Shown one piece after another: positions 658 to 8,238 of a stretch of DNA of 8,582 bases. How positions within the stretch are numbered: the first letter of the stretch is position 1; each line of letters begins with the position of its first letter. This stretch comes from a bacterium (GTDB lineage: Bacteria > T1Sed10-126), in the NCBI GenBank assembly GCA_003554945.1, contig PWHN01000005.1:1-8582 (forward strand), written 5' to 3'. A program made the position numbers and the translations under genes. The notes under the pieces were generated by a model. It saw only the letters and a list, made by a program, of their open reading frames with translations. It did not search any database and was not told the DNA's origin.

Positions 658-1351
658 CGCTAACATTTTAGTTATCGATGACGAAGAAAACATCCGCATG
701 ACCCTGCAAAAGACTCTCTCTAAACAGGGTTATGAGGTAGAAACTGCTTTAAACGGCGAAGATGGTCTGGAAAAAGCCCGGAAATCAGAGCCCGATCTCA
801 TCCTGCTTGATCTTAAGCTCCCGGGATTGAGCGGCCTGGAGGTACTGGAAAAACTCGAGGATCATCCGGCCAGTGTAATTATGATTACCGGTTACGGCAG
901 CGTGGAGACCGCCGTAAAATCAATGAAATCCGGCGCCATTGATTACCTGCGCAAACCCTTTTCGCCGGATGAAATTCGTGAGGTTGTCAGCGAAGTTCTC
1001 CAGCGGCGAAAACTTGAGCCCAGGGAGCCGGAAAAATCAGACTACGAGACCTGTATTGAACTGGCCAAGAAAATGATTAACGAGAAGAAATTCGAACAGG
1101 CCGAGGACTACCTGGAAGCCGCCCTGGCCAGCGATCCTTCCACCGGGGAACCCTTTAACCTTCTCGGAGTTATCCTGGAGATGAGAGGGGAAACTACCGA
1201 AGCATTAAAAAAATACCGGGCTGCCCTGGCGCTGGATCCGTCCTATAAGCCTGCCGAACAGAATATCGAAAGAGCAACGCAGTTTGACTACAGTCCGGAG
1301 GGAATTAAGCTGGACGAGGAAACCGAAGCAGACACTGGTGATAAAAACTAA
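650..1351 (+). CDS. Response regulator: NtrC-type receiver fused to TPR repeats
   Basis: This 233-residue protein has an N-terminal receiver (about residues 3-118) with D10-D11, phosphoacceptor D54, T80 and K102. The stretch ITGYGSVETAVKSMKSGA and the following YLRKPF are typical of NtrC-family receivers. After a charged linker come two tetratricopeptide-like helical hairpins (about 131-164 and 167-200, each ending in a DP(S) motif) and an acidic tail. There is no AAA+ ATPase, Fis-type or winged-helix DNA-binding domain, so the output is probably protein-protein contact through the TPRs. Start 650 has a strong AAGGAGG (637-643) and gives the normal receiver N-terminus; an in-frame ATG at 596 lies inside the previous gene and is rejected. 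The stop overlaps the next ATG by one base (TAATG). Whether it regulates the K+ transporters encoded downstream is inference. Confidence 0.9.
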   Translation: MSDANILVIDDEENIRMTLQKTLSKQGYEVETALNGEDGLEKARKSEPDLILLDLKLPGLSGLEVLEKLEDHPASVIMITGYGSVETAVKSMKSGAIDYLRKPFSPDEIREVVSEVLQRRKLEPREPEKSDYETCIELAKKMINEKKFEQAEDYLEAALASDPSTGEPFNLLGVILEMRGETTEALKKYRAALALDPSYKPAEQNIERATQFDYSPEGIKLDEETEADTGDKN

Positions 1352-1758
1352 TGTACACCATTATTGTAGGCTGTGGACGCACGGGCGGCGAGCTTGCTTC
1401 CCGGCTCTCCAGAGCCGGTCACGAAGTCGTTATCATCGACCGGTCGGAAGCATCTTTCGCTAATCTTTCGCCCGAATTCACGGGCTTTAAGCTCCACGGT
1501 AACGCAGCCGAACTATCCCTGCTGGAGGAAGCTAAAATAGATCGGGCCGACGTTTTTGTGGCCACTTCTGACGACGATAACGTAAATTACATGACCAGCC
1601 GGATTGCAAGTTGCATTTTCAACGTTCCCCGGATCCTGGTCCGCATAAATGAACCGGAGAAAGAAATACTCTACGAAAAAACCGAACTGGAGACATTTTC
1701 TCCCACTACTCTTTTAGCCGGCCAGCTTGCTAATACTATCACGGACAATTTGGAGTAA
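1351..1758 (+). CDS. RCK N-domain-only protein (TrkA-N, nucleotide-binding)
   Basis: This 135-residue protein consists only of the Rossmann-type RCK_N (TrkA-N) domain found in the cytosolic regulators of Trk/Ktr K+ transporters. The dinucleotide loop is intact (G7-x-G9-x-x-G12, preceded by IIV), and an acidic residue, D30, ends the second strand where the ribose is normally held. R10 matches the arginine seen in the GLGRFG motif of KtrA. Usual single-unit TrkA/KtrA proteins are about 220 residues; here the RCK_C domain is absent, since the stop at 1756-1758 comes right after the N-domain. It starts on the last base of the preceding gene and lies 5 bases before a second RCK gene, so the two products probably assemble together. 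The ribosome site is weak, consistent with coupling. A decayed E. coli-type double TrkA is an alternative origin. Confidence 0.85.
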   Translation: MYTIIVGCGRTGGELASRLSRAGHEVVIIDRSEASFANLSPEFTGFKLHGNAAELSLLEEAKIDRADVFVATSDDDNVNYMTSRIASCIFNVPRILVRINEPEKEILYEKTELETFSPTTLLAGQLANTITDNLE

Positions 1759-1763
1759 ATAAA

Positions 1764-2429
1764 ATGAAACTGATTCTTGTTGGAGGCGACAAAGCAACCT
1801 ACTACCTGGCGCAAACTTTTGCGGCCAAGGGTCACCGTGTCGTTTTGGTAAATAAAGACAGGGACTACTGCGAGGAACTTTCTGAAAAGCTGAAAGCTCT
1901 CGTGGTCTGCGGCGACGGTTCGCAACCTTCCGTGCTTGAGGACGCCGGGTCCCGAAGCGCTGACGCTCTTTTAGCTTTAACACCGGATGATCCGGCCAAC
2001 CTACTTATCTGTCAGTTAGCCCGGGAAGTCTTTAGCGTCCCCCGCACCTTTTCAATAATTAATAACCCGACTAACGAGAAGATTTTTAAAGAGCTGGGCG
2101 TTGAACAGGTTTTTAATAAAACAACTCTTCTCAGTGAACTTGTCGAGCAAAAAGTTACCTCGGAAAATATCGACACTATCCTATCTTTAGCCGGCGGCCG
2201 GGTTAACGTAACCCAGGTCGTGCTCACCGACGACTCCCCGGCGACCAACCAGAAGTTAGAAGAACTGGCACTGCCCCCTGACTCCGTTATTGGTACTGTG
2301 ATTCGTGACGAAGGAATTATCGTCCCTCGCGGGGACACGAAACTTCAGGCGGATGACGAGCTTCTTGTCTTCACTCTGAACACTAACCAGGGGGAAGTTC
2401 TTGAGGCCTTAGTCGGGAGCAAACTCTGA
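1764..2429 (+). CDS. trkA: TrkA-like RCK protein (RCK_N plus RCK_C) with degenerate nucleotide site
   Basis: This 221-residue cytosolic regulator has the length and order of a single-unit TrkA: an RCK_N Rossmann domain (about 1-130) and an RCK_C domain (about 147-218, with RGDTKLQADDELLVF near its end). It would gate the TrkH channel encoded next. The nucleotide loop is abnormal: where GxGxxG is expected it reads G7-G8-D9-K10-A11-T12, so the second and third glycines are lost, and the acidic residue at the end of strand 2 is N30. Classical NAD(H)/ATP binding is therefore doubtful. The start is supported by GGAG at 1752-1755. It sits 5 bases after the N-only RCK gene, which does keep these residues, so a mixed ring of the two proteins is an attractive inference. 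Family assignment is firm; the loss of binding is a prediction from motif inspection. Confidence 0.88.
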   Translation: MKLILVGGDKATYYLAQTFAAKGHRVVLVNKDRDYCEELSEKLKALVVCGDGSQPSVLEDAGSRSADALLALTPDDPANLLICQLAREVFSVPRTFSIINNPTNEKIFKELGVEQVFNKTTLLSELVEQKVTSENIDTILSLAGGRVNVTQVVLTDDSPATNQKLEELALPPDSVIGTVIRDEGIIVPRGDTKLQADDELLVFTLNTNQGEVLEALVGSKL

Positions 2430-2436
2430 ATTCCTC

Positions 2437-3921
2437 ATGCGCTTGAAAAAGTTTCTGAAAATCCGTTATAGACTGATATTAAAATACATTGGTGTCCTTG
2501 TCGCCGGCGGTGGGCTTTATCTTCTCACCCCTCTCTTTTCCCTACTTTTTTTCCCGGGGGAAGTAAACTATAGTCTAAGTTTTGTCATCCCCGCACTAAT
2601 CGGTATTTTCTTCGGAGCCCTGCTTTACTTTTTCAACCGTTCTTCCTTTGAAGTAACTCTCAACTTAAAAGAGGGAGGAGTTATAGTTGTTATTTCCTGG
2701 CTTGTCGTTATCCTGCTCTTTTCTCTACCCTTTTACCTGACCGGCATCGCTGACTTCACTGGCGCAGTTTTTGAATCCACCAGCGGCATCACTACCACGG
2801 GACTTACAGTTGTTGAAGAGGATTCCGTTCCTAAAATGTTCCTGCTCTGGCGCTCTCTTATGCAACTTCTTGGTGGTGCCGGACTGGTAGTGGTTATGAT
2901 GGCTGCTATTATTAATCCCTATGGCTTTGGAATGTTTCAGGCCGAAGGCCGTGAGGATCAGCTGGTTCCACATGTAAAACGTTCGGCCAAGTTAATCTCC
3001 ACGATCTACATCAGCTACAGCTTAGCCGGAATTGTTCTCTATTATCTAGCCGGGATGAACCTGTTTGATTCCATAAACCACTCCTTTGCCGCACTCTCCA
3101 CCGGAGGCTTTTCCACCTCACCGGCCAGCATTGGCGCCTGGGACAGCCTCTCCGTGGAACTGGTTACTATCTTACTCATGTTGCTGGGGGGGATTAACTT
3201 TGCCACTCATTACGTCCTCTTAAAGGGAAAATACAGACTATTTTTTAAAAACGGTGAAATCAGGTTTTCCGGTTTCGTTTTGCTTTTTAGCATACCACTG
3301 GTGAGCTTTCTGGGACTACGGGGAATTTCAACGGCTGTATCAGAAGCTGTCCGAACGGGCTCATTTCAGGTCATTTCTGCCCTGACTACGACCGGTTTTT
3401 CCACCGTGAGCCTGGCTGGCTGGCCGGCTCTGGCGTTCTTTACAATAATTATTCTGATGCTTATCGGTGGTGGGGCCGGTTCTACAGCCGGCGGGTTGAA
3501 ACAATTTCGAGTTCATGCACTTTTCTGCGTTCTTTTCTCCGAAATCAAGCGCATAGTCCTGCCTGATCGAGCCGTCTATAACACTCACGTCTGGCGGGGA
3601 GAAAAGCAGGTAAGGTTGGACAACGAACAAATCAAAGAAATCGCCAGCTTTGTCGCCCTTTATTTCGTCACTTTTACTGTTGGCGTGCTTATTTTTCTCA
3701 GCTACGGTTATGAAATTCGGGAGTCTCTTTTTGAGTTTGCATCCGCCCTTGGAACGGTGGGACTATCGACAGGTATTACAGGGCCCGAAGCTCCCCGAGG
3801 AATACTCTGGACACAGACTGCGGGCATGTTCCTGGGCCGGCTGGAGTTTCTCATTATATTTGTTTCAATCATAAAACTATTATCGGACGTTAGAGCTCTT
3901 GTCAGGGCTGATCAACTATGA
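2437..3921 (+). CDS. trkH: TrkH-type potassium uptake channel subunit
   Basis: This 494-residue integral membrane protein has the four-fold M1-pore-M2 layout of the TrkH/TrkG/KtrB superfamily. The four selectivity-filter segments are visible at about residues 115-124 (TSGITTTGLT), 220-227 (LSTGGFST), 316-323 (LTTTGFST) and 438-445 (LGTVGLST), each with its filter glycine (G122, G223, G320, G442). The glycine-rich intramembrane gate loop is GGGAGSTAGGLK (344-355). Length, the extended N-terminal hairpin and the C-terminal GRLEFLI fit TrkH better than the shorter KtrB. It imports K+ across the cytoplasmic membrane under control of an RCK ring. ATG 2437 lies 7 bases after trkA and has no good ribosome site at normal spacing (GGGAG at 2415-2419 is too far), so translation is probably coupled. 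No other in-frame start exists between it and the in-frame TAG at 2410. Confidence 0.93.
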   Translation: MRLKKFLKIRYRLILKYIGVLVAGGGLYLLTPLFSLLFFPGEVNYSLSFVIPALIGIFFGALLYFFNRSSFEVTLNLKEGGVIVVISWLVVILLFSLPFYLTGIADFTGAVFESTSGITTTGLTVVEEDSVPKMFLLWRSLMQLLGGAGLVVVMMAAIINPYGFGMFQAEGREDQLVPHVKRSAKLISTIYISYSLAGIVLYYLAGMNLFDSINHSFAALSTGGFSTSPASIGAWDSLSVELVTILLMLLGGINFATHYVLLKGKYRLFFKNGEIRFSGFVLLFSIPLVSFLGLRGISTAVSEAVRTGSFQVISALTTTGFSTVSLAGWPALAFFTIIILMLIGGGAGSTAGGLKQFRVHALFCVLFSEIKRIVLPDRAVYNTHVWRGEKQVRLDNEQIKEIASFVALYFVTFTVGVLIFLSYGYEIRESLFEFASALGTVGLSTGITGPEAPRGILWTQTAGMFLGRLEFLIIFVSIIKLLSDVRALVRADQL

Positions 3922-5288
3922 TTTCAAATTTATATAATCACCTTGATCAAATTACACCTTTTGAACTGACCCCTACCCGGCTAATTATTATGGGTTACCT
4001 GGTCGTCATCCTGACCGGTGCCTTACTGCTCACTCTGCCCGTGGCGACGCAGTCGGGGGAGGCGACGCCATTCATCAACGCTCTCTTCACCTCTACCTCG
4101 GCCGTCTGCGTTACCGGTCTGATTGTCGTTAACACCGCCGCGCACTGGTCGCTGTTCGGCCAGGTGGTTATCCTCGTCTTGATTCAGATCGGCGGTCTGG
4201 GGATTATGACCCTTTCCACGCTGGCTATTGTCCTGATCGGCAAAAAAATACTGCTCAGCGAACGTCTCCTGATTCAGCAGGACCTCGGTCACCTGACTCA
4301 ATCCGGCCTGCTTAAACTGGTCAAATACATCATTACCCTGACTTTTGTTGCCGAAGCCACCGGTACTCTGCTCCTTTTTTATAGTTTGATTGGAGACAAG
4401 GAACCACTAACTGCCGCCTGGCACGCCCTTTTTCACTCGGTTTCTGCTTTCAACAACGCCGGTTTTGATATTTTCGGCGATAGCCTCGAAGGTTTCACTG
4501 GAAATATTGTTGTAAACCTGACAATTATTTCCCTGATTGTTCTTGGCGGTCTGGGTTTCACAGTAATCTACGAGTATGGTAGTAAATTATTTTCCACCGG
4601 CAAGCAACGGAAGCTTTCTCTCCACAGCAAAACAGTGTTTATCGCCACTGTAACGCTCCTTATACTTGGAATCGTAGTTATTTACGGTCTGGAGATGAAT
4701 AATCCCGAAACGATGGGGGGACTTTCCGGCGGCAACCGGCTGTTAGCTTCTTTTTTCCTCTCGGTAACTCCTCGAACGGCCGGCTTTAACACCGTCCCTA
4801 CGGGAGCCCTTACAACTGCTACCCTGGTTTTTGTCATCTTCCTGATGTATGTGGGCGCATCTCCCGGCTCCACCGGTGGCGGCATTAAGACTACTACCTT
4901 TGCGGCTCTTCTCAAGCAACTTTATGCTTATGTCTTCGGGAAACGTGATGTCACTTCTTTCAACCGCCGCTTGAGCCAGGGGCTAGTTCGCAAGGCAATG
5001 GTTATCGGATTTCTCGCCCTCGCTTTAATATTTGTTAGCTCTTTCCTTCTTTCAATTACTGAAAACGCTGAATTCCTTGATATACTTTTTGAATCAACAT
5101 CCGCCTTTGGCACTGTCGGTCTATCAACCGGCATAACCGGCGAACTTTCTTTTTTCGGACGGCTGATTATTATTATTACCATGTTCGCCGGCCGACTCGG
5201 TCCTCTCACACTGGCGATCGGTTTAAGCCGCGCTGAAAAAAATAAGGTCAACTATCGCTATCCGGAAGAAGATATAATGGTTGGATAA
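3918..5288 (+). CDS. ktrB: KtrB/NtpJ-type potassium channel subunit
   Basis: This 456-residue membrane protein is a second K+ channel subunit, of the Ktr branch. It carries the four filter segments (AVCVTGL 62-68, AFNNAGFD 177-184, TPRTAGFNT 284-292, AFGTVGLSTG 396-405), the gate loop GASPGSTGGGIKTTT (313-327), and the C-terminal GRLGPLTLA and YPEEDIMVG signatures typical of KtrB/NtpJ. Ktr systems usually couple K+ uptake to Na+ and work as a KtrB dimer on a KtrA octamer; that part is family knowledge. It overlaps trkH by 4 bases (ATGA) and is followed 27 bases later by ktrA, the expected partner. Having TrkH and KtrB side by side in one operon is notable and suggests two uptake modes made together, or channels sharing subunits. 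Confidence 0.95.
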   Translation: MISNLYNHLDQITPFELTPTRLIIMGYLVVILTGALLLTLPVATQSGEATPFINALFTSTSAVCVTGLIVVNTAAHWSLFGQVVILVLIQIGGLGIMTLSTLAIVLIGKKILLSERLLIQQDLGHLTQSGLLKLVKYIITLTFVAEATGTLLLFYSLIGDKEPLTAAWHALFHSVSAFNNAGFDIFGDSLEGFTGNIVVNLTIISLIVLGGLGFTVIYEYGSKLFSTGKQRKLSLHSKTVFIATVTLLILGIVVIYGLEMNNPETMGGLSGGNRLLASFFLSVTPRTAGFNTVPTGALTTATLVFVIFLMYVGASPGSTGGGIKTTTFAALLKQLYAYVFGKRDVTSFNRRLSQGLVRKAMVIGFLALALIFVSSFLLSITENAEFLDILFESTSAFGTVGLSTGITGELSFFGRLIIIITMFAGRLGPLTLAIGLSRAEKNKVNYRYPEEDIMVG

Positions 5289-5315
5289 CACACGTAATTA
5301 GACAGGAGGTATAAA

Positions 5316-5975
5316 ATGCAAACCAAACAATTTATCGTCGTAGGTCTGGGTCGGTTTGGCACCAGCATTGCTGAAAAACTTACCGAACTCGGACACGAGG
5401 TTCTGGCGCTCGACATAAATGAACAAGAGGTCGACAGGGTGAAGGACACTGTAACCCAGGCTGTTACCATCGACAGCCTGACCGAGGAAACTCTGGAGTC
5501 GCTAGGCGCCCGGGATTTAGACGTCGGCGTCATGGCAATTGGCGAGGATATTCAGTCCAACATCATGGGTTCTTTGATGCTTAAAGAGTTGGGCTTGATG
5601 GTGGTTGCCCGGGCTCAGAACGAGCTCCACGGAAAATTGCTGGGAAAAATTGGAGCCGATCGTATAATCTATCCCGAACACGACATGGGAGCACGAGTCG
5701 CTTACAATTTAACCGCAGTAAACGTGCTCGACTACATCGAACTCTCGCCCGAGATATCGGTGGCGGAAGTAACGGTCAGCCCGGAAATGGCTGCCAAAAG
5801 TCTGAAAGAACTTGACCTGCGCTCCCGTTACGGGGTCAACGTGCTGGCAATAAAATCCTCAGATGGACAAATCAACATCTCTCCCCGGGCAGACGACTCC
5901 CCTGAAGAAGAGGATACGCTCGTCCTGGTTGGTCCAAACAAGGGAATTAACGCTATGAAGGAAAAGTTTAAATAA
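5316..5975 (+). CDS. ktrA: KtrA-type RCK regulator of potassium uptake
   Basis: This 219-residue cytosolic regulator has an intact RCK_N domain with the GLGRFG loop (G10, G12, G15, with R13), D33 ending strand 2, and the ADRIIYPEHDMG segment in which E121 corresponds to the glutamate next to the bound nucleotide in Bacillus KtrA. An RCK_C domain follows (about 140-218). The family binds ATP and ADP, forms an octameric ring and opens or closes the KtrB dimer. The start has an excellent AGGAGGT (5304-5310) with 5-base spacing, stronger than that of the upstream channel genes, as expected for a protein needed in excess over its channel. The gene is the last of the + strand operon and ends 4 bases before the stop codon of the opposing metal transporter gene; no separate terminator is visible. 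Confidence 0.95.
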   Translation: MQTKQFIVVGLGRFGTSIAEKLTELGHEVLALDINEQEVDRVKDTVTQAVTIDSLTEETLESLGARDLDVGVMAIGEDIQSNIMGSLMLKELGLMVVARAQNELHGKLLGKIGADRIIYPEHDMGARVAYNLTAVNVLDYIELSPEISVAEVTVSPEMAAKSLKELDLRSRYGVNVLAIKSSDGQINISPRADDSPEEEDTLVLVGPNKGINAMKEKFK

Positions 5976-5979
5976 ACCC

Positions 5980-6822
5980 TTACCCCAACATAAGTAAACT
6001 CACGGCCATTATAAACATCCCTAAAATGAGACCGTAAATCGAAAGATGATGCTCGCCGTATTTCTCGGCCGCCGGCAACAGCTCATCCAATGCCACGTAG
6101 ACCATTATACCGGCCACTGCTCCAAAAACAATTCCAAAGGCCGGGTCCTCGGGACCACTTAAGAAGGGCAGCAAAAGCCAGAAACCAACAAAAGCCCCGA
6201 TAGGTTCTGCACAGCCGGCCAGAAACGAATAGAGCAATCCCTTTTTGCGGCTGCCGGAAGCGTAATACAAGGGCATAGATACGGCGATCCCCTCCGGTAT
6301 GTTATGAATCGCTATTGCTATGGCAATAGTAATCCCCAGTAAAGGGTCATAGAGCGCCGCCAGAAACGTAATCAGTCCCTCGGGAAAATTGTGCAAAAAT
6401 ATTGCCAGCGCAGAAAATATTCCCGTCCGGTGCAGCTCACCGGCGTCGTGAATTGGCGAGGACTCGTCTTTGGTCTCTTCAATAAATTCCTCCACTTCCT
6501 CAACCGTATGCAACTCGTGCGGATTGTCAAACTCCGGGATCAGGTTGTCAACAATAATCGCCAGTAAAATGCCGCCAAAGAAAGCCGCCACGGCGACCAG
6601 CTTGCTGGGCGCCATGTCAAAAGCCTCGTTGGCCAGCAGTTCAACAAATGAAATGTAAATCATCACTCCGGCGGCAAACCCCAGCGCCGCCGTTAAAAAT
6701 TTCTTGTTTGTATGCTTGGTAAAAAAGGCCATAAATCCACCAATTCCGGTGGAAAGCCCGGCCAGCGTCGTCAAACCAAAAGCAAATAATATCGCAGTCA
6801 ACTCAAAACCATTTAACGTCAA
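5980..6822 (-). CDS. zupT: ZIP-family divalent metal transporter (ZupT-like)
   Basis: This membrane protein, about 280 residues from the TTG start, moves Zn2+ or other divalent metals (Fe2+, Mn2+) into the cytoplasm. The two ZIP metal-binding helices are clear: HNFPEG (144-149) and HNIPEG (173-178), with a further conserved acidic motif AEPIG (about 205-209) and the GFAAGVM motif in helix 2. Between helices 3 and 4 is an acidic, histidine-containing loop (about 98-133, with H102, H105, H125 and H131), likely the variable metal-sensing loop. TTG at 6820-6822 is preferred because GAAGGAG (bases 6831-6837) sits 8 bases before it; an in-frame GTG at 6829-6831 overlaps that site and would add three residues. 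The gene converges on ktrA and is probably its own transcription unit. Metal specificity cannot be told from sequence. Confidence 0.92.
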   Translation of the reverse strand: MTLNGFELTAILFAFGLTTLAGLSTGIGGFMAFFTKHTNKKFLTAALGFAAGVMIYISFVELLANEAFDMAPSKLVAVAAFFGGILLAIIVDNLIPEFDNPHELHTVEEVEEFIEETKDESSPIHDAGELHRTGIFSALAIFLHNFPEGLITFLAALYDPLLGITIAIAIAIHNIPEGIAVSMPLYYASGSRKKGLLYSFLAGCAEPIGAFVGFWLLLPFLSGPEDPAFGIVFGAVAGIMVYVALDELLPAAEKYGEHHLSIYGLILGMFIMAVSLLMLG

Positions 6823-6830
6823 TCCAGCCA

Positions 6831-6837
6831 CTCCTTC
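6831..6837 (-). promoter_or_regulatory. Ribosome binding site deciding the zupT start
   Basis: GAAGGAG on the minus strand lies 8 bases upstream of TTG 6820-6822. It overlaps the alternative GTG at 6829-6831, which would have only a distant GAGG. This favours a rare TTG start for the metal transporter. Confidence 0.55.
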
Positions 6838-6947: not shown

Positions 6948-8123
6948 TTAACTATCTGTGAGCTGATTTTCATTTAAAAAATTCTCCACGTCCTGGTAAT
7001 CAGGCTCTTCGCCGACCTCTTCAACCAACTGAAAGTAACGCAGGACCCCAGCTTGATCAACCACCATGACAGCTCTTGCCGTCAGCCCAACCCCCTCTAT
7101 CAAAAGCCCGCAGCGGCTGGAGAACTGCCGTCCGTTTATGTCCGAGTAAATCGGCCAGTCGATTCCTTCCTTTTCTTTAAACCGCTGCTGGGCAAAAGGT
7201 GTGTCACAACTCATAGTGACAAAATTTATTTTTTCATCATAATTTTTTAATTTCTGACTGAATTTTTTCGTCTGTTGTTGACAGACCGGGGTATCGAGAG
7301 AAGGAACCGAGCTTATCACGAGTGGTCCATCCAACAACTCAGCCAGAGTAACCGTCTGACCTGGAACCTTCATTAATTCAAAATCAGGAACGGGTTCACC
7401 AACTTCTGGCTGAACTCCAATGAGATTCAGGTTGTCATCTCCCATTTTTACGGACTTGATTTGCTCAACAAAGGGATTTTTAAGTTCCAGCTTCTCCGGC
7501 GGGTTATAGCTGTTCATGCTCACAATATCTGTAAAATTCTTTCTCCGGTTGCGCTGCAGCAGAGTAGTTTCATCATCAAATTTACCCAGGGAGAGAAGCA
7601 TTGTCACAATTAAATCTTCCGGAATATCAAATTTTTCTTTTACTTCCTGCGGATTAAAGCCAATCATCGGGTGGGACTGCCAGCCGTAGGCTTCCGCCGC
7701 ATACATCAATGACATCCCGAAAAATGCTGCATTTTTAACCGCATATCGGTCGGGCTTTTCCAGGTCGGTATAAAGCCCCTCTACCATCTCCGTGTAACCC
7801 TCCATTTCCTCGGCTTCCATATACCCCCGTTCAACAAAACTGCCGTAAGTAGGATTTCCTTTTTTATAGGCTTCTGGATCTGCCAGGACAATCAGTGTAC
7901 ATGAGGATTCAGTAATTTTTGGCTGATCAAAGGCAGATTCTCGAAGATTTGCTTTGGCCTCAGGATCTTCAACCACTACGAGTTCCCAGGGCTGGGTGTT
8001 TGAAGATGAGGGGGCAAGCCCCGCCAGATTGACGATATTCCTTAATGCTTCTTTTTGCATGGAGCAGTCTTCTTTGAAAAAATTGACGGACCTGCGGCGA
8101 ATAAAATTTTCCAGGGTTTCCAT
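6948..8123 (-). CDS. Nitroreductase-thiol peroxidase (Tpx) fusion protein
   Basis: This 391-residue cytosolic protein joins two redox enzymes. Residues 1 to about 205 form an FMN-dependent nitroreductase: RRRSV near the start (9-13), APSSSNTQPW (37-46), the helix around NAAFFGMSLMYAAEAYGW (131-148) and LLSLGKFDD (176-184). Residues about 236-387 form a Tpx-type peroxiredoxin: VGEPVPDFEL, the active site PSLDTPVC with T278 and peroxidatic C281, the PFAQQRF motif, R350 in TARAVMVVD, and QLVEEV...EPDY. About 30 residues link them. The usual Tpx resolving cysteine after PFAQxRF is K316; C306 and C338 are the other cysteines in this half. The start has AAGGAGG (bases 8131-8137) 7 bases upstream. 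It likely reduces peroxides, perhaps fed with electrons by the flavin domain; that coupling is inference. Both families are individually common; the fusion is not one I recognise. Confidence 0.92.
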   Translation of the reverse strand: METLENFIRRRSVNFFKEDCSMQKEALRNIVNLAGLAPSSSNTQPWELVVVEDPEAKANLRESAFDQPKITESSCTLIVLADPEAYKKGNPTYGSFVERGYMEAEEMEGYTEMVEGLYTDLEKPDRYAVKNAAFFGMSLMYAAEAYGWQSHPMIGFNPQEVKEKFDIPEDLIVTMLLSLGKFDDETTLLQRNRRKNFTDIVSMNSYNPPEKLELKNPFVEQIKSVKMGDDNLNLIGVQPEVGEPVPDFELMKVPGQTVTLAELLDGPLVISSVPSLDTPVCQQQTKKFSQKLKNYDEKINFVTMSCDTPFAQQRFKEKEGIDWPIYSDINGRQFSSRCGLLIEGVGLTARAVMVVDQAGVLRYFQLVEEVGEEPDYQDVENFLNENQLTDS

Positions 8124-8209
8124 GGCTTTTCCTCCTTAAAAGGGACCAGCAGAGATTAGTTTACACCACATGCATGATAAATAAATTTTAATGTGTTGAT
8201 GTTAATTTC

Positions 8210-8238
8210 ATTATAGGCACTTCAAGAAATATTTTCAA
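8210..8238 (-). promoter_or_regulatory. Sigma-70/SigA-type promoter for the fusion gene
   Basis: On the minus strand, TTGAAA (8238-8233) and TATAAT (8215-8210) are separated by exactly 17 bases, one mismatch from the full consensus. Transcription would begin near 8203, giving a leader of about 80 bases before the ATG at 8123. The strength of the match suggests high basal expression of the nitroreductase-Tpx protein. Confidence 0.72.

Follow-up and report, generated by a model that had tools for sequence, protein, structure and literature searches.

A nitroreductase fused to a Tpx-type peroxiredoxin in uncultured bacteria, a candidate bifunctional oxygen-defence protein

Can nitroreductase-family flavoproteins feed electrons to peroxiredoxins? 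A simple test of this question is offered by a gene found in a stretch of 8,582 bases (the window), in which a nitroreductase (Ntr) and a Tpx-type peroxiredoxin are fused in one polypeptide of 391 aa (6948..8123, minus strand; assigned from the ORF, Pfam and NCBIfam). If electrons are fed from one half to the other, the fusion would represent a new class of reductant beside thioredoxin reductase and AhpF; if they are not, it helps to define the role of such nitroreductases in oxygen defence. The first-pass annotation of the DNA had proposed the former, namely a peroxidase in which NAD(P)H reduces FMN and FMN reduces the peroxidatic centre, with thioredoxin replaced.

The structure of the gene agreed with that annotation in most respects. 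The frame runs uninterrupted from ATG to stop over 391 codons with no internal stop, and the strong ribosome site claimed for it was found as the Shine-Dalgarno sequence AAGGAGG (8131..8137, minus strand), 7 bases 5' of the ATG. The claim of a promoter held only in part. A site of the form TTGAAA-17-TATAAT (8210..8238, minus strand) matches the consensus at 11 of 12 positions, but six promoter-like sites were present in the scanned stretch, a small excess over the 3.8 expected by chance, and the match alone is no proof of function.

An assembly or sequencing error that fused two genes could be suspected, since the window is a short contig (8582 bases) from a draft genome and unfused homologs occur elsewhere as adjacent genes with a short gap between them. 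However, the fusion was present at full length in two other, independently assembled genomes. One ortholog, 63% identical, came from the window's own family and phylum (L003, genome G001; public record PWOD01000072.1 of MAG CSSed10_354m, L032); the name of this MAG matches the soda-lake-sediment series, as far as the naming given in PMC6146748 goes. The other, 47% identical, lies on JAGOBX010000235.1 (L033) of bin Go_SlDig_bin_425, for which an origin in a sludge digester was inferred from the bin name. This bin, labelled Candidatus Dependentiae, comprises 3.8 Mb in hundreds of contigs; members of that phylum generally have far smaller genomes, which casts doubt on the bin's label or purity. 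The three fusions aligned without indels, linker included, up to the last few residues. Between the window and L003, differences at the first, second and third codon positions numbered 49/30/115 in the Ntr half and 54/27/104 in the Tpx half; this prevalence of third-position changes indicates that purifying selection acts on both domains, while the linker, with 17 codons, is too short and too diverged for such a reading. Because the fusion is conserved in orthologs and under apparent purifying selection, a stop lost by assembly error was rejected as an explanation, and a joining artefact of any kind is extremely improbable. The gene was thus taken to be a real single gene.

The N-terminal half (residues 1-205; 7509..8123, minus strand) is a complete FMN nitroreductase domain, as had been claimed. 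Residues 9-181 matched PF00881 with an E-value of 8e-21 and 75.3 bits against a gathering score of 23.5, covering positions 3-167 of the 167 in the profile. The residues predicted to form the FMN site are conserved, namely S12 together with R10, R11, P38, S39, N42, Q44, R191 and R194, the latter eight being invariant in an alignment of 12 Ntr homologs. Foldseek placed this half with the YdfN-type nitroreductases, whose structures 3BEM and 3GE6 are its nearest solved relatives; these share the domain fold and the FMN-site residues but are standalone proteins without a peroxidase domain. A linker of about residues 206-222 (7458..7508, minus strand) lies between the domain ends and carries no indels among the three orthologs. 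In an AlphaFold2 model from a seven-row alignment, the domains were usable (mean pLDDT of 76.2). Since the linker region was disordered (pLDDT below 50 at residues 185-221) and the pTM was 0.45, the model does not give the arrangement of the domains. Viral contigs, when searched, yielded single-domain relatives only, and these served as rows of the alignment.

The C-terminal half (residues 223-391; 6951..7457, minus strand) was assigned to the Tpx-type peroxiredoxins by PF08534/PF00578, PRK00522 and Foldseek. The Redoxin profile PF08534 (Redoxin/AhpC-TSA) matched residues 241-378 with an E-value of 1.5e-23, and the NCBIfam thiol peroxidase model PRK00522 matched residues 224-379 with 119.2 bits, slightly below its curated cut-off of 123. 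In structure searches, this half showed the Tpx fold, with TMt values of 0.87-0.92 to the Tpx structures 9F5V, 2YZH and 1PSQ. The Tpx active-site motif PS(I/L/V)DTx(V/T/I)C (PMC5302317) is present as PSLDTPVC at residues 274-281, and the active-site residues P274, T278, C281 and R350 are intact. The peroxidatic cysteine C281 (7281..7283, minus strand) is invariant in the three fusions and was found in 76 of 77 other Tpx. The claim of a complete Tpx peroxiredoxin therefore stands by motif, arginine and fold, with the sub-threshold PRK00522 score and one replaced cysteine as qualifications.

This cysteine is the resolving one, which lies in helix 3 of known Tpx structures (PMC5302317). In the alignment, its canonical position is occupied in the window by K316 (7176..7178, minus strand), so that RFC reads RFK. 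Lysine was also found in L003 and cysteine in L033, i.e., two of the three fusions are without it. With the replacement by K316, the domain can be classed from its sequence as atypical and Tpx-like. A tie between the loss of the resolving cysteine and coupling to Ntr was considered and dropped after 40 more Tpx had been added: of 68 unlinked Tpx with an intact peroxidatic cysteine, 8 were also missing the residue, as was 1 of 8 Ntr-adjacent Tpx. Standalone proteins with RFA, RFI or RFM at this site were seen in L148, L153, L169, L173, L174, L177 and L179, which suggests that 1-Cys-like Tpx are not rare. A second cysteine, C306 (7206..7208, minus strand), occupies the middle position of the SxD motif in the sequence SCDTPFAQ and is specific to the fusions (3 of 3, against 0 of 77 other Tpx). 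Besides C281, it is the only cysteine kept across all three. Since the three fusions form one clade, C306 counts as one event; still, it suggests something special in the fused Tpx, beyond function side by side. In comparison with Tpx family members such as those of Aquifex (2YZH) and E. coli (1QXH), the window protein thus has fold, PSLDTPVC motif and active-site arginine in common, but differs by the lysine in helix 3, by the additional C306 and by the fused Ntr.

How widespread is the fusion? Of 386 genomes drawn from across the bacteria, 3 carried it: the two from the window's phylum and the digester bin. A further sample of 385 genomes, mostly the same as the first 386, added no new fusion. 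The three fused domains formed one clade in the Tpx tree (support 100/97) as well as in the Ntr tree (support 100/99), which points to the domains having been joined once and the fusion having then been inherited or transferred.

The view that the pairing of domains had not been described before was only partly correct. A literature search, with most subscription journals outside its coverage, returned no description of a nitroreductase joined to a thiol peroxidase. For nitroreductase and peroxiredoxin in general, however, a hybrid of the two from Thermotoga maritima (PDB 4EO3) has been characterised. Like the window protein, it unites a peroxiredoxin and an FMN nitroreductase in one chain, but its peroxiredoxin is N-terminal and, by the chain name, of the BCP/PrxQ class, whereas the window protein has an N-terminal Ntr and a Tpx-class peroxiredoxin. 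From domain order and peroxiredoxin class, the two fusions seem to have arisen independently. Thus, a second, separately arisen joining of nitroreductase to peroxiredoxin appears to exist in uncultured lineages. According to a passage in a review (PMC8395237, citing Couturier et al. 2013), the domains of the T. maritima hybrid work independently and do not exchange redox equivalents. The two hosts differ as well: no thioredoxin match was obtained for T. maritima in the control set, whereas canonical thioredoxins are encoded in the window's genome.

Unfused counterparts were found in a large other phylum. Among 395 of its genomes, three full-length matches were obtained, all of them as two genes in the order Ntr, stop, short gap, Tpx, with frame and order as in the fusion. 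A laxer search revealed five more adjacent pairs (G736, G621, G666, G670 and G778), and at least eight such pairs in eight genomes of that phylum are therefore known (L127-L134). Their Ntr proteins belong to the same subfamily as that of the fusion, with about 40% identity. In the Ntr tree, the clade of the operon pairs was separate from the fusion clade, while for Tpx a common clade of fusions and pairs was not rejected (AU test, p = 0.093). Judged from these sequences, the fusion may have descended from such a pair. The gene 3' of Tpx encodes an Fe/Mn superoxide dismutase (SOD) by Pfam in L127, L128, L129 and L132, and its sequence in L100 and L130 looks like that of the same SOD. Moreover, an SOD-like gene directly follows Ntr in L138, and rubrerythrin-family genes adjoin Ntr in L136 and L139. 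These neighbourhoods point to a recurrent Ntr-Tpx-SOD gene association. Since the pairs are commonly followed by an Fe/Mn SOD gene, the Ntr and Tpx activities are likely set in the defence against oxygen and peroxide. The reverse order was seen in L013 (1438-2658, plus strand), where a Tpx gene is followed almost directly by a nitroreductase of another subfamily.

The window protein is probably a bifunctional oxygen-defence protein whose two halves act side by side rather than in an obligatory relay. In it, an NAD(P)H:FMN oxidoreductase of the nitroreductase family and a Tpx, elsewhere products of neighbouring operon genes, would be merged in one chain. The Tpx half, with its intact motif and fold, would reduce H2O2 or organic peroxides via C281. 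As the canonical resolving cysteine is lacking, the sulfenic acid may be resolved in 1-Cys fashion by an external thiol or thioredoxin, or else via C306. By family, the Ntr half would be an NAD(P)H-driven FMN oxidoreductase with quinones, nitro compounds or other molecules as acceptors, and their reduction would be part of the same stress response. The fusion would hold both halves at a 1:1 stoichiometry, perhaps in an assembly that uses the dimer interfaces of both domains, and a relay from NAD(P)H over FMN to Cys would most likely not be obligatory. At least two canonical thioredoxins are encoded in the window's genome, and no other Tpx-like match of comparable strength was found there.

The relay model of the first-pass annotation was disfavoured because of these thioredoxins and because its nearest studied analogue, the T. 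maritima hybrid, shows no exchange. In a fuller form of that model, FMNH- would reduce the Tpx half, either as Cys281-SOH or as a C281-C306 disulfide, as AhpF reduces AhpC. The covalent fusion and the recurrent Ntr-Tpx pairing do suggest functional coupling, and the missing resolving cysteine in two of three fused Tpx and the unique C306 in all three can be counted in its favour. Reduction of Cys-SOH by FADH2 is known chemistry from NADH peroxidase, and direct electron transfer between the domains is possible. Nevertheless, a stand-in for a missing thioredoxin was ruled out by the thioredoxins present, and the loss of the resolving cysteine, shared by unlinked Tpx, is no mark of coupling to Ntr. 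AhpF/AhpC, in which a flavoprotein likewise works with a peroxiredoxin against peroxides, is a functional analogue; however, AhpF passes electrons through disulfide redox centres, while nitroreductases are without a redox-active disulfide. None was apparent in the window, where the Ntr domain contains no CxxC and its sole cysteines, C20 and C75, are both absent from L003, so that the AhpF-like role was not borne out. A self-contained NAD(P)H peroxidase is therefore unlikely, and its specific form, a thioredoxin-independent single chain in which nitroreductase FMNH- reduces the Tpx centre with C306 as relay or resolving residue, is likewise unlikely. An improbable alternative is that the Ntr half generates H2O2 as an NAD(P)H oxidase and a thioredoxin-reduced Tpx half removes it locally, giving a four-electron O2-scavenging module. 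The NADH oxidase of Thermus (1NOX), a member of the Ntr family, is among the relatives, and the unfused genes adjoin SOD and rubrerythrin-family genes; on the other hand, an oxidase activity would be putative for this Ntr subfamily, and many nitroreductases are slow with O2.

Some further observations were made on related loci and in the surroundings of the gene. A tandem Tpx in L011 (2313-2867, minus strand) adjoins an intact copy and has neither a peroxidatic cysteine (the motif reads PSLEHPEY) nor a resolving one; its sequence marks it as a degenerate or non-peroxidase Tpx. In the window, a gene for a ZIP-family metal transporter (5980-6831, minus strand) lies directly downstream of the fusion gene on the same strand, with 116 bases between, and is possibly co-transcribed with it. 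At positions 1351-5975, genes for potassium transporters of the TrkH type (two) and for proteins of the TrkA type (three) form a single run, preceded by the end of a histidine kinase and two response regulators. For K+ uptake this is an unusually rich cluster, which may be compatible with a saline habitat.
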